Shown: positions 25,409 through 40,585, counted from the first letter of the stretch. The stretch: DNA of 41,473 nucleotides from Bacillota bacterium (GCA_021783135.1 JAJXUE010000026.1:1-41473), one strand, 5' to 3'. Program-made: numbers and translations. The notes: generated by a model not told the origin, from the sequence alone.

Positions 25409-28400
25409 TTATCCTAAAATACTGATTGTTATCGTAGCACTCGCCGCACTCTTTTGCGTTACGGTTACTAGATTGCCGACCGCAGTAACTGTGTAGGCGG
25501 CGTTGATAGCGCTGTTTCCGTTAAGCGCACCCGCAATTGCCGTGGCAACCGTTGAGGTGGGATCACCGGCTGTGACCGCTGCAGTTACCGTTGTATTAAT
25601 CGTACCATCGTTAAAGAGGACACTTACCGACCCAGTCCCGGTTGCTCCGGAAGAGACGGTGATGGTCTCGGTTTCCGGGGTAGCTGATACTGCCGGTGAA
25701 CCAGCTGAGTAAGCTACCAATACACTGCCACTGCCAACGGTTACGCCAGTACCATTGGGATCCGATGATGTTAATGTCCAAGTGCCGGTTGTCGCTGCGG
25801 TTGTCTGGGAAACCGTCACATCGGCTCCTGAAGGAGCGGCGGTGTAGTTGCTAGCACTCAAAGCTACGTCAAGTGCGGTGGAAATCTCACCCGCGACGAC
25901 ACTAGCTGTGTCACCGGTAGTTACATTAACCGTAACGGGTCCGACGCTATAACCACTACCATCACTAAAGTTTACAGTAATGGAACCTGCGGTAGTCGCT
26001 CCACTGGTGACTTGCCATTCATCTTCCTGGGCGGTAGCGGGGATTGCAGGTGTACCTGCTTTAAAGGCTTGGGTCTGAACGGACGACGCTACCACTCCGG
26101 TTGCTACCGTCAAATTCACCGAGTCGGTCACCCCACCTTGGTTGTAGATGGCGGAATAGCTCCCGGCCGTCGCGCCATTAGCTACCGTCACTGTGCCGGT
26201 GGAGGAGTCAATGCTAACGCCTGTAGCACCAAGCGGGCCTGTAAGACTATAGGTTCCGCTGTTGCTCAAGGCATTTCCATAAGCATCCTTCACGGTCGGG
26301 ACGACGCTAACTGCATCAGTTATATTTCCGGTTGCCGGCGGTGTAAGGGTGGTGCTGGCATACCCCAATCCGGTGATCGTCGCAGGAGCACCAAGCTGCA
26401 CCGTCAACGTTACGCTGTCTTTGATTCCGCTTTGGGTATAACTTGCGGTGTAAGTTCCAACAGTAGCGCCATGGGCTACAGTCACTACGCCTGTACCGGA
26501 ATTGATACTGACACCTGTTGCACCACTCGGACCCGAAATAGCGTAGGTTCCAGTGTTACTTAAGGTATTACCGTTAGCATCCTTCACTGTCGGGGCGACA
26601 GCAACCGTATCAGCTGTAGTTGTGCTAGTTGGGATAATGATTGAACTGCTATATGCCAAGCCGGTTACCGTTGCTGCGATTGCCCCACCGCTGACATTTA
26701 CCGGCAAGCTGGCAATGGCTGTTGTAGAACTTCCCGGGTTCGTGGCATAGAAGTCCAAGCTACCGCGCACTCCGTTGCCCGAGTCAATATTGCTGACTGC
26801 AGCGCTAGTACCGGTAATTGTATAGTATTGGACATTGCCATCCGCAACTGTAAAGTTGATGGTGCCGCTAGCACCTGTAATCAAGGCAACATAAGGTGTA
26901 CCGCTTTGCAGATTATTCGCACTGAGTATGCCGGAATCATAGACACTATTGTAGTCTAAGCTCGTGCCGCCAGGCAATATCGCTGCCACGTTGAACAGAG
27001 GTACCGGAGTATTTACTGTCTGGAAGCTCGGGGTGGTAGCGGATCCAAGGTTAATCGACTGTTGTACCGCTGCACCGTTAACTTGGGTAATCCATAAGTT
27101 ATTGGTAGAATTACCGACCAAATAGATGGTTTGATTCGCAATCGAGTTGCCAAAACCATCGATGGCGGTTAAAGTAACGTTTTGGGAGCCGCCAACACTG
27201 AAGTTAAACGACTGGGGATTGGCAAGGACGCTACTCACGGCACCACCACTGCTCGAAGCTCCGGCACCAAACACGGTAGTAACAGTAGCGGATTGGCTGT
27301 TGACCGAATTAGTAACCGTTACCGTCGGAGACTCAGCATACTTGTCACTTACGTAGGCAGTGACTGCTTGTACCGGTGCAAAGGTCATGCTTGAAAGAGC
27401 CGCCGTACTGCCGGTAGCAAGCGGAACAGTTACATTGTTGGTTGCATTGACAATCAAGGTCGACCCGGAGATTTCGAAGCCGAGGAAGCCTTCATAAGGT
27501 TGTTTTAGCGTCATCCCGGTTGCATCCCAAGCTTCAACAGCTGCAGGTGCGGATGATGGGCTGGACGGATTATAGCTGTAGGCAGTAATGATGTTGCCGC
27601 TTTGGGCCAAGAGGTACCCGCTTGTAGCACTCACCGGATTATAGCCCAATACAGTTCCTGTAAGCGAAGGCCAGATAGAGACATTGTTTACGCTAACGAC
27701 TCCGCTTGGTGCTACGTTGACTTGCGCCGTTTGTGGCGCACTTTGCAGTTGATAGCCGTCTATCGCACGCAATTTACCGTTGTCATTCGCTATCATAGTG
27801 TAATTAATACTTTGGGTCGGAACAGTAGCTATGGCAATCTGGCTGTTAAACGGTGCCACAACAAAGCTGGCATTATTGCCCATGTCATAACCGTCATAAG
27901 CAGTTCCGGATACAGTAGCCGTGTTTGCAGGTGCAGCATTGCCGTTTTTCAACGGTTGGTAGGTCATCATAGACGTAATATTACCCGCTATACCTAGGCT
28001 GGTTAGCTGGCTGGCGCCGGTAAAGTTAGCCGTAATACTGGTACTGGCTCCACCTTGACCGTTGGTAGTATCTAATGAAGTAGCACCTGTCGTAATACCG
28101 GAGTATGCTTGTACTTCTACATTAACCGCACCGGCAGTTGCATTGGTCCCGACACTGTTCACATAGAAGATAAGCTGTCCGCTGCCGTCGTAGGCGGCAG
28201 GATCGTTAAACGGCGTGTCCAACGTAGTAACAACACCTGTTGTTGCATTGGTCCACGTGTGTAAGTACAATTGGCCGTTATAATACTGGAAGTCTACGGC
28301 GGAAGGCACGGCATTGGCTGCTACCCACGGCAAATTGGCACCGTTGGTGTTACCGACTTGATCGATAGTCATGCTGCCCGGTAGCGTGATATTAAAGTCC

Positions 28401-30952
28401 AGACCATAGCCGGCAAATTGGTTAGCAGCAGAAGATGCTGAGGTCGGCGCAATCATAATACCGTTTTGGTTGAAGCCTGCAGCATAGAGCTCCTCATCCG
28501 AACCGAGTACATTGGTAAAGCTTTGTGTAGCTGTAGGCACGGCGGTGATTCCAGCATAATTCACCTGCAGTGGCGATGTGCTGACTGCTGCAGCTTGAAT
28601 AGTTTGCCCTTGCTCCCACACCAAGTTGATATAGTTACCACCGTTATTGTTTCCAACAAAGGTCATCGAGGTAATACCGCTGGTAGGTAAGCTTTGACCG
28701 CTCGCTATCGAGACAGTATTTGGTATATCGTAGATATAATACTGAGTAGCACTGTTAGCCAGACTTTGGGTAACAGGTACATTTGCCGTCACCACCAAGG
28801 AAAATTGGCCGTTGGCATCAGTTGTAACCACGGGGAAGCTGGTCGCACTAAACAGAGTACTTGTGCCATTTTGCACGAAAGCGTCATTTTGGATGTTATT
28901 GGAGGATCCTCCGCCCAATACATCATAATCTTGGATAGCGAGTCGAGCGCTCGTCACCGGGTTGCCGGCAGCATCTTCCAATGTGCCGCTAATCGTTATT
29001 TGCGAACCGGATGTAGCAGTTTCGGCCGCGTTAGATACTGAGGTGCTGGTAGCGGACAACCCTGTTGGGTTTAACATTTGGCTCGGACTGACATTGGCAA
29101 TTTGCGCTGCTTGCGCCACCGTTTGCCACTTATAATAGCCACTGTTGGTGGAACCGCCGCCATTAACCAACTGTGCTTGTACCGATACCTCCATGTTTGC
29201 GCCCAAGTCGGCAACGCCATTGGTGGAAGGTTGGTTGGCATTAATATAGATGACAGCCTGACCATTACTGTCAGTGGTAACATTGTAGGTAGCAGAAGGA
29301 GGTGCAATAGTACTGGTACTAACAGCGGCGTTTTGACCCACTGAGCCTATCCCTGTAGAGTCAGTGAAGAACGCTGTGGCATCTTGAGTAGCACTTTGCG
29401 CCGTCATCGTGAATTTTACAGATTGTCCGGCCATACTGGAACCTGTTGTCCCCAGATAAGTTGCAACCACCGGTACTAAGCCAGTTGTTTCACTCGCCGA
29501 ATTAGAAAAGCTCAAATTATCCGGTGCACTTGAAGAATAGAGCGGACTCAATACCAGCGTACCCGGAACACCCCACTGTCCAACTACCTTGTTAGATTGT
29601 ACAGCTTTACCGTTATTATAATAAGGAGCTTGGACAATCACATTGAATGCAGAATTGGAACTGGCGGTTGAAGTAAAGCTGATTGACACATTGCCACTAG
29701 CATCAGCCCCAACTGTATAAGTAGCTGTATATCTATCATTGCCAATGATAACCGGCGTACTAAGATTGTCCGCAGACAATATTTGACCATTAGCGGTTGC
29801 TGTAATATTGTTGGAATTGGTGACCAAATAAGTCACAGTCGAATTGGCGGTATTAGGTCCACTAATACTTGCGTTAACTGTAAGGGGATTATTAATGGTT
29901 GCAACCGCTGGAGAGGCCGCTGTACCGTTACCAACTGTTTGACCGCTTACACTCAGGTTGCTAATGCTAACTGCTCCTGTACTGACAGGGACGCTGGTGG
30001 GGTTAGCAGCCTCATTCAAAACTGTACTGGTTACCACACTGGGGCCACCCAAACCGACTACTTTACCGTTATTACCAATTTTAGCCCCAACATCAGTAAG
30101 TGTGGATGTGCCGTTCGAGCCGTCGGCTAACACAATCGGAGAATCGGTCATAGCAGCAAGCGGTGACCCCACCAAGGAGTCTACTAAGTGATTATTCATT
30201 CCGCTGGCAACATAGACGGGATTAAAGCTGTAGCCTAAGGTGTCAATTACATCTTGGTTGGTTCCGTAGCGATCATTGCCATAAATACGCGTGGCGTTAG
30301 CAATGTTTTGCACCAAGGTTGGACCGCCGATTATGTATACTTTCGAACCCAAGTAGGGTTGCTCGGAAGCAGGCAAAGTGCCATCTTGATTAGCAACCAA
30401 AATGGAGTAGTTATTGGCGGCAGCAAAGGATGCGACAGACAAAGCATCGGCGAGAGCATTATAACCGACCACAAAGGAACCGGCCGGACTGCTAAGCCTG
30501 GCTGCAATCGCCGCCGCTGTCCCTGTGCGACTCGTACCCTTTAGTACGGTGGTGGTAATACCACCCAGAGCATTGACTTGATTGACTACATTTTGGCTGA
30601 TAGCCCCAACTACATACACGTTTTTAACACCCAATTTAGTTAATTCCGCTTGGGCAGCGGCACTCAGGGTATTATTGTCAGTCAGGAGAATGGGAATAGT
30701 TTTGCCTGCCAAAGGAGCAGCAGCTAAGGCGTCAACCAGATTTGCATCACCGGACGGGGCCAAAATAGCCGTTCCGGCCGAGGACCAGCCTTGATTGGCG
30801 ACAGCTACGGAGGTGGCAATTCTATCTGCACCATACAGATTGGACGTTGTTACCCCCGTGCCGGCAAAGGCAGCTAGTGGTACCATGGTCAAGGTCATTC
30901 CGACAATGGCCATCCCAGCCATGGCTTTTTTAGTCTTCTTAAATCTACTCAT
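25409..30952 (-). CDS. S-layer-type protein with N-terminal CWB2 anchor and Ig-like C-terminal extension
   Basis: 1847 aa, ATG at 30950-30952 after GAGGAGGG. There is a basic signal peptide of about 30 residues (MSRFKKTKKAMAGMAIVGM...AAFA). Three CWB2 units occupy roughly residues 38-330 (LYGADRIATSVAVANQGW, YVVGAISQNVV, YIIGGPTLVQ, GLGGPSVV). Next come about 1070 residues of beta-rich, Ser/Thr/Asn/Gly/Val-rich sequence that is Cys-free in the parts inspected and collinear with the 1407-aa paralogue. The last 440 residues are unique: two tandem Big-type Ig units (each with VKDANGN or VKDAYGN and GTGVVTV or STGTVTV), then two related units containing VSSGATGTGSVSVLFNDG-like blocks. It anchors to wall glycopolymer and presents a long array outside the cell. 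Confidence 0.93.
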   Translation of the reverse strand: MSRFKKTKKAMAGMAIVGMTLTMVPLAAFAGTGVTTSNLYGADRIATSVAVANQGWSSAGTAILAPSGDANLVDALAAAPLAGKTIPILLTDNNTLSAAAQAELTKLGVKNVYVVGAISQNVVNQVNALGGITTTVLKGTSRTGTAAAIAARLSSPAGSFVVGYNALADALSVASFAAANNYSILVANQDGTLPASEQPYLGSKVYIIGGPTLVQNIANATRIYGNDRYGTNQDVIDTLGYSFNPVYVASGMNNHLVDSLVGSPLAAMTDSPIVLADGSNGTSTLTDVGAKIGNNGKVVGLGGPSVVTSTVLNEAANPTSVPVSTGAVSISNLSVSGQTVGNGTAASPAVATINNPLTVNASISGPNTANSTVTYLVTNSNNITATANGQILSADNLSTPVIIGNDRYTATYTVGADASGNVSISFTSTASSNSAFNVIVQAPYYNNGKAVQSNKVVGQWGVPGTLVLSPLYSSSAPDNLSFSNSASETTGLVPVVATYLGTTGSSMAGQSVKFTMTAQSATQDATAFFTDSTGIGSVGQNAAVSTSTIAPPSATYNVTTDSNGQAVIYINANQPSTNGVADLGANMEVSVQAQLVNGGGSTNSGYYKWQTVAQAAQIANVSPSQMLNPTGLSATSTSVSNAAETATSGSQITISGTLEDAAGNPVTSARLAIQDYDVLGGGSSNNIQNDAFVQNGTSTLFSATSFPVVTTDANGQFSLVVTANVPVTQSLANSATQYYIYDIPNTVSIASGQSLPTSGITSMTFVGNNNGGNYINLVWEQGQTIQAAAVSTSPLQVNYAGITAVPTATQSFTNVLGSDEELYAAGFNQNGIMIAPTSASSAANQFAGYGLDFNITLPGSMTIDQVGNTNGANLPWVAANAVPSAVDFQYYNGQLYLHTWTNATTGVVTTLDTPFNDPAAYDGSGQLIFYVNSVGTNATAGAVNVEVQAYSGITTGATSLDTTNGQGGASTSITANFTGASQLTSLGIAGNITSMMTYQPLKNGNAAPANTATVSGTAYDGYDMGNNASFVVAPFNSQIAIATVPTQSINYTMIANDNGKLRAIDGYQLQSAPQTAQVNVAPSGVVSVNNVSIWPSLTGTVLGYNPVSATSGYLLAQSGNIITAYSYNPSSPSSAPAAVEAWDATGMTLKQPYEGFLGFEISGSTLIVNATNNVTVPLATGSTAALSSMTFAPVQAVTAYVSDKYAESPTVTVTNSVNSQSATVTTVFGAGASSSGGAVSSVLANPQSFNFSVGGSQNVTLTAIDGFGNSIANQTIYLVGNSTNNLWITQVNGAAVQQSINLGSATTPSFQTVNTPVPLFNVAAILPGGTSLDYNSVYDSGILSANNLQSGTPYVALITGASGTINFTVADGNVQYYTITGTSAAVSNIDSGNGVRGSLDFYATNPGSSTTAIASLPVNVSGGAIAATVTGLAYSSSIIIPTSTTTADTVAVAPTVKDANGNTLSNTGTYAISGPSGATGVSINSGTGVVTVAHGATVGTYTASYTQSGIKDSVTLTVQLGAPATITGLGYASTTLTPPATGNITDAVSVVPTVKDAYGNALSNSGTYSLTGPLGATGVSIDSSTGTVTVANGATAGSYSAIYNQGGVTDSVNLTVATGVVASSVQTQAFKAGTPAIPATAQEDEWQVTSGATTAGSITVNFSDGSGYSVGPVTVNVTTGDTASVVAGEISTALDVALSASNYTAAPSGADVTVSQTTAATTGTWTLTSSDPNGTGVTVGSGSVLVAYSAGSPAVSATPETETITVSSGATGTGSVSVLFNDGTINTTVTAAVTAGDPTSTVATAIAGALNGNSAINAAYTVTAVGNLVTVTQKSAASATITISILG

Positions 30953-31028
30953 TAATTAGGACCCTCCTCTCATTGGAACCGATTGAAGTTTAAGCGGTAG
31001 AATCTTTCTGTCTTCAAGTACATCACCC

Positions 31029-31140
31029 AAAGGTATCCGACCCAGACAAAGTTGAATGGTATTCCCGTAGCAGCTATTGCGGTGGATTTGCCCAATAGAT
31101 GGCAGTAACTCATGTAAAGACTAAAAACATAGACTTCACA
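31029..31140 (-). promoter_or_regulatory. Conserved 5' leader element of the 1847-aa S-layer gene
   Basis: Positions 31084-31140 align without gaps to 35868-35924 upstream of the other S-layer gene, 47 of 57 bases identical by my count. Flanking it here are a hairpin CCGTAG-CAG-CTA...CGG (31065-31082) and ATCC at 31035-31038, which can pair with the GGAT that opens the block. It lies about 80-190 nt before the start codon and is non-coding on both strands. It is a candidate cis-acting RNA. I do not match it to a known riboswitch class. Confidence 0.6.
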
Positions 31141-31252
31141 GATAGCGCGGCATTATTAGAAAGATTTACCTATTAATAGAATACCATATATCTTTGGAAG
31201 ATGTTTAAATAACCAGAAATATTGATAACTTTTTATTTTAGTTTTGCGAATG

Positions 31253-31270
31253 TCCGCAAATATAATGTTC
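31253..31270. other. Inverted repeat upstream of the S-layer leader
   Basis: TTTGCG (31253-31258) and CGCAAA (31265-31270) with a 6-bp spacer, in an AT-rich stretch likely to hold the promoter of the 1847-aa gene. Possible operator. No equivalent was seen before the 1407-aa gene. The rest of the 488-bp gap 30953-31440 holds the leader element, a CCGGCA/TGCCGG pair (31287-31320) and a terminator. Confidence 0.4.
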
Positions 31271-31341
31271 CTACATTAATCAGACCCCGGCAACGAAGGC
31301 ACTTGATTCCCTTATGCCGGACTTTTAGCTCGATAAAATTA

Positions 31342-31379
31342 AACAGTCCCGGTATGAACTTATTCATACCGGGACTGTT
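31342..31379 (-). terminator. Strong terminator of the 1407-aa S-layer gene
   Basis: Perfect 17-bp stem AACAGTCCCGGTATGAA (31342-31358) / TTCATACCGGGACTGTT (31363-31379) with a 4-nt loop. On the minus strand TAATTTTATC follows. It lies 62 bp after the stop. Confidence 0.85.
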
Positions 31380-31440
31380 AATTTAAACACTTAGCTAGAA
31401 GAGCTGGCGGGGCGAGCCAAGCTCACCCTGCTTAAGCAAA

Positions 31441-34400
31441 CTAGTTAACGTTTACGGAGACAGCTCCGATTGTATTAGGTGTGGTGCTGTTAGGATTGTT
31501 GCTGAAGAACTTCAGTGTTCCAGCTGCGGTAGCACCAGCATCAACATTAGATACTGCAGCGTTGGAGCCGCTAACCGTGTAGTATTGAACGTTGCCGTTA
31601 GCTACTGTGAAGCTTACGGTTCCGTTAACACCGGTGGTTAGAGCTACATACGGGGTTGCGGTTTGCAGGCCGTTAGCACTGAGCGCACCCGATACGTATA
31701 CGCTGTTGTAATCCAAAGTGGTACTGGTAGACAGTGTAGCGTCTACATTGAACAGAGGTACAGGAGTGTTCACAGTCTGGAAGCTTGGAGTACTAGCTGA
31801 TCCAAGGTTAATGGACTGTTGAACAGCTGCTCCGTTGACTTGGGTAATCCACAAGTTGTTGGTGCTGCTGCCGGTCAGGTAGATGGTTTGGTTCGGCAAT
31901 GCATTGCCGTAACCGTCAATAGCGGTTACAGTAACGTTTTGCGAAGAACCAACCGAGAAGTTAACCGACACAGGATTAGTTGCAACACTAGCCAGTGAAC
32001 CGGTGTTCGAAGCGCCTGCAGAGAAGGCTGCAGTAACAGTAGCTGCTTGACTGTTAACGGAATTGGTAACCGTAACTGTCGGGGACTCAGCATACTTGTC
32101 ACTAACCATCGCGGTCACTGCTTGAACAGGTGTCAAGGTCGCTCCGCTGAGAGCAGAACTTGAGCCACCAATTAAAGTGTAAGGGCTTGTAGAATCAAGC
32201 GTCAAGCTAGTACCTGATCCAGTAAAGCCGAGGAAGCCTTCATAGGAATTTTTCAGTTTTACACCGGTAGGTACACTCCAAACAGCTACTGGCGAGCTAG
32301 TAGCACGACTGTAAGCTGTAATCGTCCCTCCGGTAGTACCGCTTTGAGCTAAGACATAGTTGTCATTATAGCCCAAGATAGTACCGGTGACAGCCGGGAA
32401 GATACCAACATTGTTAACGCTTACCATGCCGTTTGCAGCTACGTTAACTTGCGCACTTTGCGGCGCACTTTGCAGTTGATAACCGTCGATGCCTTGGATC
32501 TTACCATTTTGGTTAGCTGCGAGGCTAAAGGTAATACCTTGGGTAGGAACAGTCGCAATTGCAACTTCGCTGTTGAACGGAGCTACAACGAAGCTGGCAT
32601 TGCTGGAAGCGCTAAAGCCATTGTAGGAGGTACCGGCAACGGTTGCGGTGTTTGCAGGTGCAGCATTGGTGTTCAGCAATGGCTGATATCCCATCAGTTG
32701 AGCAACATTACCGACAACACCCAAGCTGGATACTTGGCTGGCACCGGCAAAGTTGGCAGTAACACTGGTGCTAGCGCCACCTTGACCGTTTGTGGTATTT
32801 AAGGAAGTAGCGTTATCGGCAATACCGGAGTAAGCTTGTACGTCTACATTGACAGCGCCGGATACGGAGTTCGAACCTACACTGTTGACATAGAAGATCA
32901 GCTGTCCGCTACCGTCGTATGCAGCAGGATCATTGAACACAGTATCTACGGTGTTGACGACGCCAGTTGCGGCATTGGTCCAACTGTGTAAATACAGTTT
33001 GCCACCATAGTACTGGAAGTCCACTGCAGAAGGTACTGCATTAGCGACTACCCACGGTAGTGTGCTGGTAGTGGCACCGACTTGGTCAATGGTGATGTTG
33101 CTCGGCAAGCTGATGTTGAAGTCAAGACCATAACCGGAGAATTGGTTGCCTGCTCCAGCTACTGTGGTCGGAGCAACCATTTGACCGTTTTGGTTAAAGC
33201 CGGCAGCATACAGTTCTTCATCAGCGCCTAAAACGTTGGTGAAGCTTTGGGTAGCTGTCGGTACAGCAGCGATTGAGCCGTAAGTTGCTTTCAACGGGCT
33301 GGTGCCAACTGCAGCAGCTTGAACGGTTTGACCTTGTTGCCATACCAGGTTCAGGTAGCTTCCACCATTGTTGTTGCCAACAAAGCTCAGTGGAGTAATA
33401 CCGCTGGTCGGCAAGCTTTGACCACTGGCCAAAGAAACAGTAGCCGGTACATAGTACACATAGTACGAGGTAGCGCTGTTTTGTACGCTTTGGGTCACTG
33501 GTACGTTAGCAGTTACCACAAAGGAGAACTGGCCATTAGCATCCGAGGTGACTACCGGGAAGCTGGTTGCGCTAAACAGGGTAGATGTACCATTTTGGAC
33601 AAAAGCGTCATTTTGAATGTTGTTCGAAGAGCCATTGATGGCATCATAGTCTTGAATGGCCAGTCTGGCATTTGGTACCGGATTGCCGGCTGCATCTTCC
33701 AAAGTACCGCTAATCGTTACTTGGCTGCCGGAAGTAGCAGTTTCAGCAGCGCTGGATACCGTTGTGCTGGAAGCGGACAAGCCAGTTGGGTTCAGCATTT
33801 GGCTTGGGCTGATATTAGCAACTTGGGAAGGTTGCGCAACTGCTTGCCACTTGTAGTAGCCGCTGTTGGTGGAACCGCCGCCATTGACTAATTGTGCTTG
33901 TAAGGAAACTTCGATCGATGCACCCAAGCTGTTCACACCATTGGTGGAAGGTTGGTTAGCATTGACGTATACAAGTGCCTGACCATTTGCATCTGTAGTT
34001 ACATTGTAGGTTGCGGTTGTTGTACCATTACCAACGGAAGACTGTTGACCAACGGAACCAACGCCGGTGGAATCTGTGAAGAAAGCGGTTGCAGAGCCCG
34101 GTGTACCTTGGGCAGTCATGGTAAATTTAACTTGTTGTCCAGCCATGGTGGAACCGGAAGTGGACAAGTAGGTTGCAACTACAGGTACCAAGCCGGCTGT
34201 TTCAGTGGCAGAACTGGAGAAGTTCAAGTTGTCAGGGGTGCCGGAAGTGTAGAGTGGGCTCAGCACTAAGGTGCCGGGAACTCCCCATTGAGCGGCAACT
34301 TTATTGGATTCTACCACTTGACCGTTGTTGTAATAAGGTGCTTGTACAACTACGTTGAAAGCGGAATTAGAGCTTGCTGTAGAGGTAAACGTTACAGCTA

Positions 34401-35664
34401 CATTGCCACTGGCATCAGCCGGTACACTGTAACTAGCGGAATACCGATCGTTACCGATAATAACCGGTGTAGACAGGTTATTGGCGGACAAGGTTTGTCC
34501 GTTTGCGGTAGCAGTGATGTTCGTAGAGCTTGTCACCAGGTAGGTCACATTGGAATTAGCTGTGTTCGGACCACTGATGGTGGCTTTAACTGTGATGCCA
34601 CTATTAATAGTAGCTACTGCAGGTGAATTAGCAGCTCCTGTACCAACGGTTTGACCGCTAGCGCTCAGGTTGCTGATGCTAACATTGCTGGTGCTAGGAG
34701 GAACAGCTGTCGGATTAGCAACTTCGTTCAAAACGGTGCTGCTAACTACGCTAGGTCCGCCCAGACCGATTACTTTGGCATTGTCAGGGAGTTTAGCTCC
34801 AACAGCAGCAGCCGTAGCAGCGCCATTCGAGCCGTCCGCCAAGACGATCGGGGAATTTGTCATTGCAGCCAGCGGGGAACCAACCAAGGAGTCAACCAGG
34901 TGGGCGCTCGTGCCATTAGCAACAAAGACATCGTTAAAGTTAAAGTTCAGGCCGTCAATTACATCTTGGTTGGTCGCATAACGATCTGCACCATAGATGC
35001 GGGTTGCGCCGGCAATATCTTGTACCAAGGTCGGTCCACCAATGACATATACCTTGGAGCCAAGATAAGGTTGCTCGGAAGCAGGCAGGCTGCCGTCCTG
35101 ATTAGCAACTAAGATCGAGTAGTTGTTAGCTGCAGCAAAGGATGCTACCGAGAGAGCATCAGCCAGTGCATTGTAGCCAACTACGAAGGAACCTGCAGGA
35201 TTGCTGAGTTTGGAGGCAATCGCTGCTGCGGTGCCGGTACGGCTGGTACCTTTCAGTACAGTCGCGGTTACACCTGTCATTGCATTTACTTGATCAACCA
35301 CGTTTTGGCTGATTGCACCAACTACATAAACGTTTTTGACGCCTAATTTGGTTAGTTCAGCTTGGGTAGCAGCACTCAGGCTGTTGTTATCAGTCAGAAG
35401 AATCGGAACAGTTTTGCCGGCCAACGGAGCTGCCGCTAAGGCGTCAACCAAGTTAGCATCGGCTGATGGAGCTAAGATAGCGGCACCGGCTGAAGTCCAA
35501 CCTTGGTTGGCAACTGCTATGGAGGTAGCGATTCTGTCTGCACCGTATAGGTTAGAAGTTGTTACCCCCGTGTTTGCAAATGCTGCCATTGGAACCATGG
35601 TCAGAGCCATTCCGACGATAGCCATACTAGCCATTGCTTTTTTAGTTTTTTTGAATTTACTCAT
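31441..35664 (-). CDS. S-layer protein with N-terminal CWB2 anchor (probable major S-layer protein)
   Basis: 1407 aa, ATG at 35662-35664 after GAGAGGAG. The signal peptide (MSKFKKTKKAMASMAIVGMA...AAFA) and three CWB2 units (LYGADRIATSIAVANQGW, YVVGAISQNVV, YVIGGPTLVQ, GLGGPSVV) are almost the same as in the 1847-aa paralogue. The remaining 1070 residues align from end to end with it (shared blocks include AAPYYNNG-like, LNPTGLSA and NNGGSYLNLVWQQGQ) and the protein stops where the paralogue's Ig-like extension begins. CWB2 domains bind secondary wall polymer non-covalently. With its strong terminator and long leader, this looks like the main S-layer gene, though relative expression cannot be read from sequence. 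Confidence 0.93.
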   Translation of the reverse strand: MSKFKKTKKAMASMAIVGMALTMVPMAAFANTGVTTSNLYGADRIATSIAVANQGWTSAGAAILAPSADANLVDALAAAPLAGKTVPILLTDNNSLSAATQAELTKLGVKNVYVVGAISQNVVDQVNAMTGVTATVLKGTSRTGTAAAIASKLSNPAGSFVVGYNALADALSVASFAAANNYSILVANQDGSLPASEQPYLGSKVYVIGGPTLVQDIAGATRIYGADRYATNQDVIDGLNFNFNDVFVANGTSAHLVDSLVGSPLAAMTNSPIVLADGSNGAATAAAVGAKLPDNAKVIGLGGPSVVSSTVLNEVANPTAVPPSTSNVSISNLSASGQTVGTGAANSPAVATINSGITVKATISGPNTANSNVTYLVTSSTNITATANGQTLSANNLSTPVIIGNDRYSASYSVPADASGNVAVTFTSTASSNSAFNVVVQAPYYNNGQVVESNKVAAQWGVPGTLVLSPLYTSGTPDNLNFSSSATETAGLVPVVATYLSTSGSTMAGQQVKFTMTAQGTPGSATAFFTDSTGVGSVGQQSSVGNGTTTATYNVTTDANGQALVYVNANQPSTNGVNSLGASIEVSLQAQLVNGGGSTNSGYYKWQAVAQPSQVANISPSQMLNPTGLSASSTTVSSAAETATSGSQVTISGTLEDAAGNPVPNARLAIQDYDAINGSSNNIQNDAFVQNGTSTLFSATSFPVVTSDANGQFSFVVTANVPVTQSVQNSATSYYVYYVPATVSLASGQSLPTSGITPLSFVGNNNGGSYLNLVWQQGQTVQAAAVGTSPLKATYGSIAAVPTATQSFTNVLGADEELYAAGFNQNGQMVAPTTVAGAGNQFSGYGLDFNISLPSNITIDQVGATTSTLPWVVANAVPSAVDFQYYGGKLYLHSWTNAATGVVNTVDTVFNDPAAYDGSGQLIFYVNSVGSNSVSGAVNVDVQAYSGIADNATSLNTTNGQGGASTSVTANFAGASQVSSLGVVGNVAQLMGYQPLLNTNAAPANTATVAGTSYNGFSASSNASFVVAPFNSEVAIATVPTQGITFSLAANQNGKIQGIDGYQLQSAPQSAQVNVAANGMVSVNNVGIFPAVTGTILGYNDNYVLAQSGTTGGTITAYSRATSSPVAVWSVPTGVKLKNSYEGFLGFTGSGTSLTLDSTSPYTLIGGSSSALSGATLTPVQAVTAMVSDKYAESPTVTVTNSVNSQAATVTAAFSAGASNTGSLASVATNPVSVNFSVGSSQNVTVTAIDGYGNALPNQTIYLTGSSTNNLWITQVNGAAVQQSINLGSASTPSFQTVNTPVPLFNVDATLSTSTTLDYNSVYVSGALSANGLQTATPYVALTTGVNGTVSFTVANGNVQYYTVSGSNAAVSNVDAGATAAGTLKFFSNNPNSTTPNTIGAVSVNVN

Positions 35665-35806
35665 TAAATAGAAAACTCCTCTCTTATGGTGTGATGATTT
35701 TGGTTTTTTTAGAGGTAAAAATTTTTCTTTACTTTACCTCTCACTCCCACTATTTAAGTCTGTCGTCACCCCCTAAGTTTCTTAAGATCTTCAGACATTG
35801 CGCAAT

Positions 35807-35924
35807 ATCTAAAGGCATCCATCCTAACAAAGAGGAGGCGTCCTTCCTCTCAGAATCTGATGAGGACGGATTTGCCCTTTAGATGGCACTAAATAATGGA
35901 GAGGCTAAAAATATAGACTCCACA
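35807..35924 (-). promoter_or_regulatory. Conserved 5' leader element of the 1407-aa S-layer gene
   Basis: It contains the second copy of the 57-bp block (35868-35924). A 9-bp perfect pairing, ATCTAAAGG (35807-35815) with CCTTTAGAT (35876-35884), closes a domain containing ATCC/GGAT and a hairpin CCTC-CAG-AAT-CTG-GAGG (35846-35865). It lies 143-260 nt before the start codon. Shared sequence plus a similar fold before two paralogous genes argues for a cis-acting leader RNA controlling S-layer synthesis (inference). Confidence 0.6.
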
Positions 35925-36279
35925 TCTTTTTACAGTATTCTTTGTAGATTTACATATTCCTGCTAATAGTGAAAACTTTTTTAAATAATTTCCATAATTA
36001 AATTGAGGATTGCATTTCAACACAAAATATCACTACAGAATGGCTTTTAAAACGCAATTTAATGCCCAATGTGTTGCTTTCTGTTCGGCCTCACCACCTT
36101 TAACCTATGCCTGATGCGGTATTATGCCACGTTCAGAGGGACGAGGCTAAGCTTGTCCATGCAACGCGATTTGTGAAGTAACCCCTATAAGGTTGCTTGC
36201 TGCATATAATATTCTTATTTGGCCGGCGGATTCCTGCAAATATCTTGAAAAAAAAATAATAAGTGGAATCTTGCTAGTC
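35925..36279. other. AT-rich intergenic stretch before the S-layer leader
   Basis: It probably holds the promoter of the 1407-aa gene: CTATTAGCAGG followed by TAAATCT on the minus strand also occurs, in shorter form, before the 1847-aa gene (CTATTAATAGGTAAATCT). A GGCCTC...GAGGCT pair encloses about 60 nt near 36090-36155. I see no gene and no convincing terminator for the amidase ending at 36280. Confidence 0.4.
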
Positions 36280-37923
36280 CTAATACCCTTCGTACACTAA
36301 AATGCCGCGATAAATACCTAGCGCTGCTTTAGCCTGCACATCAGGTGAGGCGAGGGCCTTTTCTTCATCTATATTAGTGATAAAACCCACCTCGATGAGA
36401 ATCGCGGGCATTGTCGTGTTTTTCAACACATAGTAATTGGCTTGTTTGACACCCCTGTCAGTCAAGCCTATCTGGTTGACCGTTTCTGTCTGAATGTCCT
36501 GTGCCAAGCGCGCCGATTGCGTGGCCAAGGTGCTGTCCGGACTGTAATAGGTTTCCGTCCCATGCGCCAGCTCAGTGGCGGAATTATTGTGAATACAGAT
36601 AAACAAATTAGCGTTGGCCTTTTCCGCGATATTTACCCGGGCCTGCAAGTCAGGTACCGCACTGCTCATGGAATAATCCGCACCTGCCGGCGATACATCC
36701 GTAGTGCGGGTCATGATTACCGTAGCTCCGGCTTGTCGCAAATAATTGGCCACATCCATACCCATGGCCAAATTAAAGACCTTCTCGGGCGTTCCGTCCG
36801 CGCCCATGGCGCCAGGGTCCGGCCCGCCGTGCCCCGGGTCAACCACAATTTTCATACCGCTTAACAAATAATCAGGCTGGATCGTGCCTTGGATTATGTC
36901 GCTAACTTGGTTCGACAACGCACCTGCTCCGCCGATCAAATACACTTCGGGATTATTCTCGGCCGCATTGCCCATGACGGAATAAGTTACCGCCGGCAAG
37001 CTGTTATTAGTTGCCATAAATAACGGTGCATTTTCTTTCGCGGCCAAAGCACCCGCCACCAAGGCGTCCGGGTAGTTTTCGCCGGTTACCACGTAGGCAA
37101 CCGGTTGACCTGTAGCCGTACTTGTTTGAGCTGTAGTTTGTGCTGGCATTCCTGTCAATACATTTTCCGCAAACAGATAAACCTTCGCCGCCGTATCAAA
37201 GCGGTCTACCCCACCCAGGCGAGTGATATTGGGAACACCCTGCAAGGTCGCATCCGGTATTGCTCCGTTTCCTCCGATAACCAATGTCTGGGGTGAAGTA
37301 ACCCCGTCTTGCAATGCGCTTAACTCGGTAAGCGTAGCCTCAGGCATCGCCTTTGCGCTAGTTAGGAGAATGGGGGTTTGGGTAACACCGGCATAGGCAC
37401 CGATTGACAGTGCATCCGGAAAATTATCCCCACTTGCCAGAATTACCTGGCCGCTCGCGCTGTCCAATCTTTGGGCCACTGCTACGGCTGTGGCATAGCG
37501 GTTCACTCCGCCAATCCGTTCCCAACTGATGCCGGCAGCATCCAGAGGGCTGGTAACGGCGTTCCCTAATGCTTGGTCTCCCCCCAGCAAAATAACGTGC
37601 GTAGCTCTTAATGCCTTGATTTCAGTCAGGACTTGGGGATCGAGGCCACCGGTATTAGTGAGCAGAATCGGCGCATCCAATTTGCGCGAGAGGGGAATAG
37701 CCACCAGTGAATCGGGGAAGTCATCGGCGCGTGCCAAAAGCACGGTATCAGCCTGCGTCCAGCCGGCCTGGGCGACAGCAATGGCCGTGCCAATCCTGTC
37801 CGTACCGTAAATTCGCTGTGTTTGACTTGCCAGCGGCGCAGCACTTGCTACCCCTTGCAAACCAAGCCAGAGCAGCATGAGAGCGCCTACAAATAGCGCC
37901 CATTTCTGATATTTTCTCGTCAA
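36280..37923 (-). CDS. CWB2-anchored N-acetylmuramoyl-L-alanine amidase (Amidase_3)
   Basis: 547 aa from TTG 37921-37923, preceded by GGAAGGGAGGG. An ATG at 37956 is in frame but has no site and would spoil the signal peptide (MTRKYQKWALFVGALMLLWLG). Three CWB2 units fill about residues 30-350 (RIYGTDRIGTAIAVAQAGW, LLGGDQALG, RIGGVNRYATAVAVAQRL, VIGGNGAI, YLIGGAGAL). The Amidase_3 domain (about 357-547) has all zinc and catalytic residues: His365 in VDPGHGG, Glu380 in EKVFNLA, His445 in ICIHNNS and Glu511 in ILIEVGF. It cuts the bond between MurNAc and the stem peptide outside the cell. It is 85 bp downstream of the CWB2 protease without a terminator between them, so a two-gene operon is likely. 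Confidence 0.95.
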   Translation of the reverse strand: MTRKYQKWALFVGALMLLWLGLQGVASAAPLASQTQRIYGTDRIGTAIAVAQAGWTQADTVLLARADDFPDSLVAIPLSRKLDAPILLTNTGGLDPQVLTEIKALRATHVILLGGDQALGNAVTSPLDAAGISWERIGGVNRYATAVAVAQRLDSASGQVILASGDNFPDALSIGAYAGVTQTPILLTSAKAMPEATLTELSALQDGVTSPQTLVIGGNGAIPDATLQGVPNITRLGGVDRFDTAAKVYLFAENVLTGMPAQTTAQTSTATGQPVAYVVTGENYPDALVAGALAAKENAPLFMATNNSLPAVTYSVMGNAAENNPEVYLIGGAGALSNQVSDIIQGTIQPDYLLSGMKIVVDPGHGGPDPGAMGADGTPEKVFNLAMGMDVANYLRQAGATVIMTRTTDVSPAGADYSMSSAVPDLQARVNIAEKANANLFICIHNNSATELAHGTETYYSPDSTLATQSARLAQDIQTETVNQIGLTDRGVKQANYYVLKNTTMPAILIEVGFITNIDEEKALASPDVQAKAALGIYRGILVYEGY

Positions 37924-38008
37924 AAACCCTCCCTTCCTTAACTTTATACGCAACATTGGGAGAATTTCGACGGGTACTTGTTAATTCCTCCAAGAAAATT
38001 GTGTGTTT

Positions 38009-40585
38009 TTAGTTAAATAAAGCCTGGAGCGCAGTCAATTCAGGCTGCGGCACAACGCTGTCACCGCCAAAAGCTGTGGCTCGTACACCATGCCAATTCT
38101 GCACTACTTTATTTAGTTCCGGCGGCAACCCGCTACTTGGCACCAATAACACATCCGTACCCCGGGTAGCGGCGAGAACTCCGCCGGTAAGAGCGTCTGG
38201 GAAATCCTCGCCTGTAGCAACATAAACCTGCTCTCCTACCGGGGGGAAGGTCTGCGCGACAACTGCGGCCGTGGCGTACCTGTCGTTCCCCGCCAGCCGG
38301 TATGGGTTGACCGTGCCGTCCAGCGTCAAGCCGCTGAGTACGCCTTCTCCCCCCACCGCGAGCGTGTCACTTACCCCAAGCTGACGCAGTGCTTGGTCTG
38401 CCGCTCCGGAGAGATCACCGGCAGGTGTCAGCAAAATAGGTTCCCCGGCCTGCGCCGCCTGCGGCGCGATGCTTAAGGCATCAGGGAAATTTTGTCCGTT
38501 AACTACAACCGCCTTGCCTGTCGTCCCGAGATTAGCGGCGATGTCCGCGGCCGTATGATAACGGTCGCTTCCGCCGATTCGGTCTGTCGGCGCCACTAAG
38601 CTCAGTTCAGTGTAAATGGCATCGGAAATGGCACCGGGACCGCCCAAAACGATAATATGCTGCGGGGCCAGGGTTTGGATCTCCGCTAAAACTGCTGTCG
38701 GTAAGGTATTACTATCGGTAAGCAAAATAGGCGCATTATCTTTGTACGCCAGCGGCGCACCTGCCAGTGCATCGGGAAAAGCATTATCGCGCGCCAAAAT
38801 TACCGTGTCCGCTCCCGTCGGAAATGCAGCCTGCGCAATCTGAATCGCTGTTTGAATGCGGTCCGCGCCAAACAGGCGGTCTTGCTGCAGACGAGGCGGG
38901 TACCCTAAGCGGTAAGTTCCCGGGGTATAAATACCTGCGGTTATATTGCTCCCGCTAGCCCCGCCGCCCACCAAAATCCAACGACCGCCGTCCCAGCGGT
39001 AAATATACCCCGGCAAACCTCCGCCAAGGTCGGAAGTTTGGGCAGACAGACCCAGCAGGAGCATTTTACCGGGCGGCCCCAAGCTTCCTTGCCAAGCGAT
39101 TGCCACGGCAGGGCCGCCCGGTATGATATCGGCCGGCAAGTCCGCTGCCGAGGTTGCAGTCGTCAAGCTCACGCTGACCTGGGTGGTAAAGGTGCCCGGT
39201 GGAATCAACAGGGCTGCTTCCTTCCCGGCAGTTTGCACTATACCGCCCGCCGGTACAACGTCAGCCGGAGCTTGCAGGGTTGCCGGCGTTGAGGCGTACT
39301 GCAAAGCGCTATACGCGTCCACACGCCCAAAGCCAGCTGAATAATTACGACCGGCGTCGCCAATATGTACCGCACTGTCTTCTAAATCGATGCGAATCTG
39401 GCGTGCCGTTAAGTCAGGTTGCTCACTCCACAGCAAGGCCGCCACGCCGGAGACAAAGGGCGCAGCCATTGAGGTTCCGTCACTGGTGGCTAAGGTCGCA
39501 GTGCCGTTTTGCCAATAGTCACTGACAATACCCACTCCCGGCGCTGTCAGGTCAGTTTGCGGACCGGTACAGGAAAAATTTGCCACAGTATCGTTGTCAG
39601 TTGAAGCTGTCACCGCGATAACATTCGGATCAGCGGCAGGATAGTCAACGCCCGGATTGCTCGCGCTGGTCGGGTCAAAATTGCCTGTGGCAGCTACAAT
39701 CAAACAACCCTTGTTCTCCGCATACTCTACTGCTTGCGTCAGGACATCCGTCTTGCCGCCTGCACCCAAGCTCAGATTGATTATCTGGGCGCCATTGTCG
39801 GCGGCCCACACAATCCCGGCTGCTATCACGTCATCAGTACCTTGACCGGAGCTGTCCATTACTTTCACCGGCATGATGCTCGCATTATAAGCTACACCCA
39901 CCACACCAAGACCGTTCAACTCAGCCGCCGCAATCCCGGCAACATTCGTGCCGTGGCCATTATCATCCTGGGCCGCGGCGGGACCGGATTCCCCGGTAAT
40001 CGCGTTATACCCGGGTACTAGGTTGTCAATTAAGTCCGGGTCAGTGAGGTCGACCCCCGTGTCAACGATGGCTATGGTTACGCCGCTTCCGGTAGCACCC
40101 ATTTGCCACGCTTGCGGTACGTGAGCCTTGGTCAGAGACCACTGCCCATCAATTGTAACCTCCGGCACATCTGACGCCGCCATCTTTTGCACTGTGGCCT
40201 GGGGCAGGGCGTTTACTTGGTAGGCGCGGCTGATTTCCGCACTCACTACGCCCTTAATTTGTCTAGCTTTACGTAAAGTCACTGCATCAACGGCAGTGCC
40301 AAACTCCAAGGTGGCGAAATTAAGCGGTCCGCGCCGAAGCACACTTGCTCCGAGCGCTTGCGCAATTTGGTCGGGACTGATACCGGCCTGCAGCTGCACG
40401 ACAACGTGTGTGTTCAAAGTCGAGTCAGGTAAAGTTGTTACTTTCACACTCTGAATTTTATTTAGTTCTGTCTTAAGGCCCTTGTTGGTATGGACTTGTG
40501 CCGGCATAGCCGCGGCAACACTTAATTGCAGCAACAAGCTGCCTGCTAAAGCCAGCGCGATAACAGCTGCGAATTTTTTCTGCAC
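38009..40585 (-). CDS. CWB2-anchored subtilisin-like serine protease (S8)
   Basis: 858 aa, GTG at 40583-40585 with AAGGAG about 11 nt upstream. Signal peptide to about residue 26. An inhibitor-like propeptide follows (about 45-125, HVVVQLQAGISPDQIAQALG). The S8 domain has the full triad: Asp175 in IAIVDTGVDL, His211 in NGHGTNVAGI and Ser372 in DGTSMAAPFVSG, with Asn302 as oxyanion residue in AATGN. A beta-rich segment (about 440-570) with LLIPPGTFTTQVSVSL resembles a ZU5-like module. The last 290 residues hold three CWB2 units (RLFGADRIQTAIQIAQAAF, VLGGPGAI, RIGGSDRYHTAADIA, VGGEGVLSG, RLAGNDRYATAAVVA). A wall-held secreted protease, plausibly processing surface proteins. Confidence 0.95.
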   Translation of the reverse strand: MQKKFAAVIALALAGSLLLQLSVAAAMPAQVHTNKGLKTELNKIQSVKVTTLPDSTLNTHVVVQLQAGISPDQIAQALGASVLRRGPLNFATLEFGTAVDAVTLRKARQIKGVVSAEISRAYQVNALPQATVQKMAASDVPEVTIDGQWSLTKAHVPQAWQMGATGSGVTIAIVDTGVDLTDPDLIDNLVPGYNAITGESGPAAAQDDNGHGTNVAGIAAAELNGLGVVGVAYNASIMPVKVMDSSGQGTDDVIAAGIVWAADNGAQIINLSLGAGGKTDVLTQAVEYAENKGCLIVAATGNFDPTSASNPGVDYPAADPNVIAVTASTDNDTVANFSCTGPQTDLTAPGVGIVSDYWQNGTATLATSDGTSMAAPFVSGVAALLWSEQPDLTARQIRIDLEDSAVHIGDAGRNYSAGFGRVDAYSALQYASTPATLQAPADVVPAGGIVQTAGKEAALLIPPGTFTTQVSVSLTTATSAADLPADIIPGGPAVAIAWQGSLGPPGKMLLLGLSAQTSDLGGGLPGYIYRWDGGRWILVGGGASGSNITAGIYTPGTYRLGYPPRLQQDRLFGADRIQTAIQIAQAAFPTGADTVILARDNAFPDALAGAPLAYKDNAPILLTDSNTLPTAVLAEIQTLAPQHIIVLGGPGAISDAIYTELSLVAPTDRIGGSDRYHTAADIAANLGTTGKAVVVNGQNFPDALSIAPQAAQAGEPILLTPAGDLSGAADQALRQLGVSDTLAVGGEGVLSGLTLDGTVNPYRLAGNDRYATAAVVAQTFPPVGEQVYVATGEDFPDALTGGVLAATRGTDVLLVPSSGLPPELNKVVQNWHGVRATAFGGDSVVPQPELTALQALFN

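Follow-up and report, generated by a model that had tools for sequence, protein, structure and literature searches.

A previously undescribed structured leader RNA precedes S-layer-type (CWB2) genes in the Desulfitobacteriales, the only order in which it has been seen so far, and we regard it as virtually certain that this RNA is a real conserved family. The best reading of its anatomy, to which in its general form we assign a probability of roughly 45%, is that an exchange between two of its helices, P1 and P5, tunes a 5' stabilizer of the mRNA resembling the stabilizing Shine-Dalgarno sequence (STAB-SD) of cry3A.

The DNA analyzed here is a stretch of 41,473 nucleotides from a Bacillota bacterium (GCA_021783135.1 JAJXUE010000026.1:1-41473), referred to as the window. 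Two S-layer-type genes with CWB2 domains, already recognized as such in the initial annotation, lie on its minus strand, as do all window features described below, and the leader RNA therefore reads GGGCAAATCC. One encodes 1847 amino acids (25409-30952) and the other 1407 amino acids with three CWB2 domains (31441-35664). The annotation had also reported a gap-free 57-bp block before each gene, at 31084-31140 (the 31.0-kb copy) and 35868-35924 (the 35.8-kb copy), and this was confirmed: the blocks are identical at 47 of 57 positions, compared with 34 for the best gap-free 57-mer in shuffled versions of both intergenic regions (200 trials) and 30 at the next-best site elsewhere in the window. 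The distance from block end to start codon differs as had been described, being 132 nt for the 31.0-kb copy and 204 nt for the 35.8-kb copy. Conservation does not stop at the edge of the block, however: across species the best conserved part is 35761-35863, downstream of it. The block makes up only the 5' portion of a larger element, which is conserved across species and read from the minus strand, and it contains, in the 35.8-kb copy, hairpin P0, the 5' strand of P1, and the start of P2. The initial interpretation, a new structured leader RNA before S-layer genes, is supported, with the amendments that the block is only a part of the domain and that the 31.0-kb copy is decayed. A strong intrinsic terminator with a 17-bp stem (31379-31342) lies just behind the 1407-amino-acid gene, so that transcription of the following S-layer gene requires a separate promoter. 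The S-layer genes are immediately preceded by a CWB2 amidase (36280-37956) and a CWB2 subtilase (38009-40585), neither of which has a covariance-model match.

The extent of the family emerged from several searches. When 61 genomes were searched at the DNA level with 35930-35780 as the query, most of the order proved to have matching sequence ahead of S-layer genes, with the consensus GTCTAAAGGGTAAGCCACCC, a variable hairpin, GGGGGGACGCCCCC, GGGTGGRTG, CCTTTAGATATTGCGCAATGTCTAAAG, about 20 nt, and TTAAGGGGGTGAGGG. Covariance model R1, seeded with eight homologues and with the window excluded, found the core domain of the 35.8-kb copy (35761-35889) blind at 78.1 bits, along with 77 places in 53 of the 74 genomes of the order. 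The covariance search that had been proposed for the blocks thus does return homologues before S-layer-type (CWB2) genes in these 53 genomes. The order is Desulfitobacteriales by its named matches, which comprise Desulfosporosinus, Acididesulfobacillus, Paradesulfitobacterium, Gracilibacter, Candidatus Dichloromethanomonas, and Peptococcaceae or Bacillota bins. The refined model R2, whose training set includes the 35.8-kb copy, scores that copy at 86.4 bits. R1 found nothing in nine additional genomes from the class, and R2, in a survey of 399 genomes of the phylum, matched only 12 genomes of the order and none of the 387 outside it, with searches spanning more than 40 genomes being run under stricter filters. 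Wherever the downstream sequence could be read, in 72 copies, the element stands before an S-layer-type gene, and the downstream open reading frames start like a secreted S-layer protein (M-x-KTKK-x-LA...); CWB2 (PF04122) was present in nine of the ten downstream proteins scanned, the tenth being a fragment. Membership in a known Rfam family, judged by a covariance-model match at the gathering score, was rejected: Rfam 15 gave no family match within the window, only weak unrelated matches when the two window leaders were searched, and no match at E <= 0.5 for 20 homologous loci.

In its own genome the leader has three copies: the 35.8-kb copy, the decayed 31.0-kb copy, and a diverged copy on another contig (L002, G000:C40:32659-32774) that stands before another CWB2 gene. 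The last of these has P1, P5, and the start-less Shine-Dalgarno (SD) sequence unchanged and a very different middle, with AACTGC/GCAGTT as P2 and a GC-rich hairpin. About a dozen other CWB2 genes of this genome have no detectable leader. In one other genome, two identical leader cores 4.4 kb apart (L109 and L110, G007:C3:1182084 and 1186497) show that S-layer genes and their leaders were recently duplicated in tandem.

The sole related idea that we found in the open literature searched is the SLH motif, a riboswitch candidate of Synergistaceae, Clostridia, and Negativicutes that lies before proteins with SLH domains in about 60% of cases and was proposed to be cis-regulatory (Stav et al. 2019, PMC6429828). 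Both are structured leaders before surface-layer protein genes, Clostridia included. The leader described here differs in preceding CWB2 proteins, with an SLH domain in none of the ten downstream proteins scanned, and apparently in its range, a search of 84,980 species genomes with the P5 core pattern having returned Desulfitobacteriales records alone. On these two grounds, gene class and P5 core range, we argue that the two leaders, which were compared by description only, are probably separate.

The structural elements of the initial annotation correspond to helices of the family. Its hairpin in both blocks is P0 (35895-35926 and 31111-31141), its outer ATCC/GGAT pairing is the 8-bp helix P2 (ATCCGTCC, 35864-35871, with GGATGGAT, 35817-35824), and P1 is the stem of 9 bp that it drew in one copy (ATCTAAAGG, 35876-35884, with CCTTTAGAT, 35807-35815). 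P0, which lies upstream of the covariance model, folds better than shuffled sequences (mean z of -2.56 over 18 leaders); its sequence varies between families, with the hairpin itself kept. The domain closed by P1 includes, besides P2, a variable hairpin, the P3 region (35848-35863), which is a stem of differing sequence in most homologues, and the P4 hairpin GGAAGGACGCCTCC (35834-35847) with its near-invariant GGACGC.

Compensatory base changes in homologues, the absence of which had been named as a ground for refutation, clearly support a structured cis-regulatory RNA and are strong in P1, P2, and P4. Across 74 distinct sequences, 94.4% of cells are paired and both sides change in 14 of the 20 pairs; the both-side cells number 131, compared with 34.2 +/- 4.5 in shuffles, none of 500 of which reached 131. 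The alignment was fitted to the structure under test, which favors that structure, but the effect size and the slid controls, in which shifting the partner by 1 to 3 columns drops pairing to 39 to 70%, still speak clearly. P2 is the clearest helix, with both-side changes in six of six pairs; CCACCC/GGGTGG, for example, is exchanged for CCACAG/CTGTGG, and the window copy has ATCCGTCC/GGATGGAT. In P1 both sides change in six of nine pairs across the family. P4 is paired in 98.9% of cells, and its pair 66-95 carries 17 both-side changes.

The P5 hairpin CTTTAGATATTGCGCAATGTCTGAAG is predicted at 35789-35814, with 95.6% of cells paired, compared with at most 49.3% in slid controls. Its left arm is the 3' strand of P1, CCTTTAGAT, and its right arm and the 5' strand of P1 share the identical sequence GTCTAAAG, so that P1 and P5 are mutually exclusive. 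At least six of eight P1 pairs and at least seven of eight P5 pairs are kept in 70 of 75 copies. In predicted folds of RNAs truncated before the 3' strand of P5, P1 formed in 73 of 75. For full-length RNAs, the mean energy difference between the P1 and P5 states was -1.3 +/- 3.5 kcal/mol; the P1 fold was best in 47 and the P5 fold in 20. P5 shows no covariation beyond shuffles in the family alignment because its sequence is nearly invariant, and its conservation could therefore have another reason. Several routes by which the exchange might act were rejected. Masking of an SD by P1 or P5 failed because static folding gave no consistent change in exposure at either SD (mean unpaired, 0.35 in the P1 state versus 0.31 in the P5 state at one and 0.41 versus 0.41 at the other), and a route from switch to output is thus not visible. 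Transcription attenuation was discarded for want of a U-run after P5, the only terminator that the scan found (31379-31342) being the one that ends the upstream gene, and pairing of a downstream AGACA with TGTCT of P5 was dropped because AGACA occurs in only 28 of 69 leaders. Overall, we would put it at even odds that the exchange is used for control.

Behind P5 lies the start-less SD TAGGGGGTGA (35766-35775), which is STAB-SD-like and occurs as (A)AGGRGGTGA in 70 of 75 copies. It is complementary over up to 10 bases to the 16S tail GGATCACCTCCTTT, as seen in six of six relatives, the window's own assembly having no 16S gene, and opposite the U of CCUCC nearly every copy has G or A. In the 12 nt that would be the place for a start codon, only 1 of 50 distinct sequences has one, compared with 15.4 expected from the same leaders; a leader peptide was rejected on this basis, start codons being depleted rather than conserved. 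The real start follows 66 to 194 nt after the start-less SD and has its own SD (GAGAGGAG, 35676-35683, in the 35.8-kb copy). Pairing of ACGCCCCC in P4 with GGGGGTGA as an anti-SD was also considered. The letters permit it, but columns 95/209 show C-A and T-G beside T-A, and we do not claim the pairing because the changes do not track each other.

The STAB-SD of Bacillus thuringiensis cry3A binds the 30S subunit and blocks RNase J1 (PMC4113751), and RNase J is encoded in the genome studied here. As in cry3A, a far-upstream SD without a translation start stands before the gene for an abundant, crystalline protein, and the cry3A transcript end at -129 (PMC4113751) may be set beside the 66 to 194 nt found here. 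Unlike the SD of cry3A, the present one lies behind a conserved multi-helix RNA with exclusive helices, and its stabilizing effect is a proposal by analogy. We consider the chances evenly balanced that the start-less SD would serve as an mRNA stabilizer.

Upstream of P0 there is a putative sigma-H-type promoter. The Bacillus sigma-H consensus is RNAGGAWWW / RNNGAATWW (PMC8510167), and the window copy has GCAGGAATA-N11-AAAGAATAC, a -35-like element at 35955-35963 and a -10-like element at 35935-35943, with one mismatch at the last W. The core AGGA(A/T)(A/T)-N12..16-GAAT is found in 48 of 75 copies, nearly always 37 to 52 nt before P1, and the full consensus with the 11-nt spacer in 22 of 75; sigH is encoded in this genome. 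With such a promoter likely upstream of the block, the block should be transcribed. In having both elements, and in the 11-nt spacing of the full matches, these predicted sites resemble the Bacillus promoters; they differ in being missing from about a third of the 75 leader copies, which must use other promoters. Most of these copies belong to the second paralogue set of one genus, Desulfosporosinus by its named records (g3, L103-L124), which has P1 to P5 and the start-less SD and lacks the sigma-H-like promoter; this suggests split regulation of two S-layer genes. The promoter, if used, would tie the S-layer gene to the transition phase.

Taken in order, the following events may be proposed. 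The sigma-H-type promoter just upstream of P0 would start transcription, with the RNA start expected about 7 to 12 nt downstream of AAAGAATA, and the nascent RNA would fold the P1-P2-P3-P4 domain first. The emerging second GTCTAAAG could then displace the P1 5' strand to form P5, so that the leader would choose between two folds of almost the same energy. Some 20 nt beyond P5, at the ten-base anti-16S sequence without a start codon and about 70 to 150 nt ahead of the real start, a 30S subunit would dock without translating and, like the STAB-SD of cry3A, would block 5'-to-3' decay by RNase J. The choice between P1 and P5, set by a ligand, a protein, or the ribosome itself, would determine the degree of 5' end protection and hence how much of the very abundant S-layer protein is made. 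In its full form, a regulated STAB-SD that replaces the terminator or masked start site as the output of the switch, and in which a sensing domain (P1-P4) and P5 decide 30S parking and mRNA longevity, this scheme is doubtful, though one to be taken seriously; no description of such a control mode was found in the open literature searched. The uses first suggested for the leader, namely mRNA stability, a riboswitch, and phase-specific control, each gain anatomical support from the start-less SD, the P1/P5 exclusion, and the sigma-H-like promoter, respectively.

Other readings give the same elements different roles. In riboswitch expression platforms with P1 strand exchange, a downstream hairpin reuses the 3' strand of the helix that closes the domain, as P5 does with the P1 3' strand here. 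It is possible that P1-P4 is an aptamer for a metabolite or ion, that the ligand closes P1 with P5 as the anti-P1 hairpin, and that the start-less SD is secondary. The closing of a multi-helix domain by P1, a conserved asymmetric internal loop (GTAAG/GTG type), the near-invariant GGACGC of P4, and the near equality of the two folds in energy would fit such a role, which was also proposed earlier for the SLH motif before other S-layer genes (PMC6429828). In contrast to those platforms, however, P5 is followed by neither a terminator nor a ribosome site with consistent masking in the two states, and the leader serves a single gene class, with no transporter or enzyme contexts to hint at a ligand. 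We judge a riboswitch unlikely, if the least so of the alternatives. Somewhat less probable still is a protein-bound leader, in which CsrA, the S-layer protein, or another protein would bind P4/P5 or the G-rich segment and repress or stabilize the mRNA. Pointing in this direction are the GGA in the loop region of P4, the GCGC-looped hairpin TTTAGATATTGCGCAATGTCTAAA, which hardly varies, and the finding of CsrA in 23 of 26 genomes searched, but a genome listed as 100% complete (G017) has the RNA and no CsrA match, so that CsrA alone cannot be the partner, and one binding site for a protein would hardly require P1, P2, and P4 to covary.

The same TTTAGATATTGCGCAATGTCTAAA is a near-perfect, almost invariant inverted repeat and could be a DNA operator, conserved for transcription-factor binding and not as RNA. 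Its family form, however, carries an imperfection acceptable to RNA, namely T.G at one pair in 68 of 74, its left arm doubles as the P1 3' strand, and the P1, P2, and P4 helices around it covary strongly as RNA; we consider an operator very improbable. The two blocks, finally, might be nothing more than a recent duplication that accompanied the paralogous genes, leaving the 31.0-kb copy functionless. That copy is without P4, the start-less SD, and a sigma-H-like promoter and is undetected by either R1 or R2, and the common part is P0, which evolves fast elsewhere. Against this, pairing persists with changed bases in P0 (31111-31141, z of -2.86), in P2 (ATCCACC, 31081-31087, with GGTCGGAT, 31035-31042, and one bulge), and in a P5-like hairpin (CTTTGGGTGATGTACTTGAAG, 31012-31032, eight pairs kept by changed bases). 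P1 there keeps seven of nine pairs (ATCTATTGG, 31092-31100, with 31025-31033), the P1, P2, and P5-like pairings having been drawn by hand. The clearly conserved 35.8-kb copy is moreover untouched by the argument, and duplication as the whole explanation has very little to recommend it. We read the 31.0-kb copy as a partial, decaying duplicate. A further stretch, 36237-36089, shows by eye a second sigma-H-like promoter (GCAGGAATC-N11-TAAGAATAT), a P0-like AACCTTATAGGGGTTACTTCA, and an SD-like TTAAAGGTGGTGAGG; R2 scores only 5.8 bits inside it. It lies 270 bp upstream of the live leader and may be a third, older remnant, left by a tandem duplicate of the complete leader that has since decayed.

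Few proteins in a cell are made in such quantity as those of the S-layer, and the route to their high mRNA levels is poorly known beyond a few model species. With its hint of a promoter, its pair of mutually exclusive folds, and a ribosome site that lacks a start codon, the conserved leader makes both mRNA stabilization and switching directly testable mutant by mutant. The leader is, in addition, an orphan RNA of riboswitch-like character in a group of sulfate-reducing and organohalide-respiring bacteria in which RNA regulation has been little studied.
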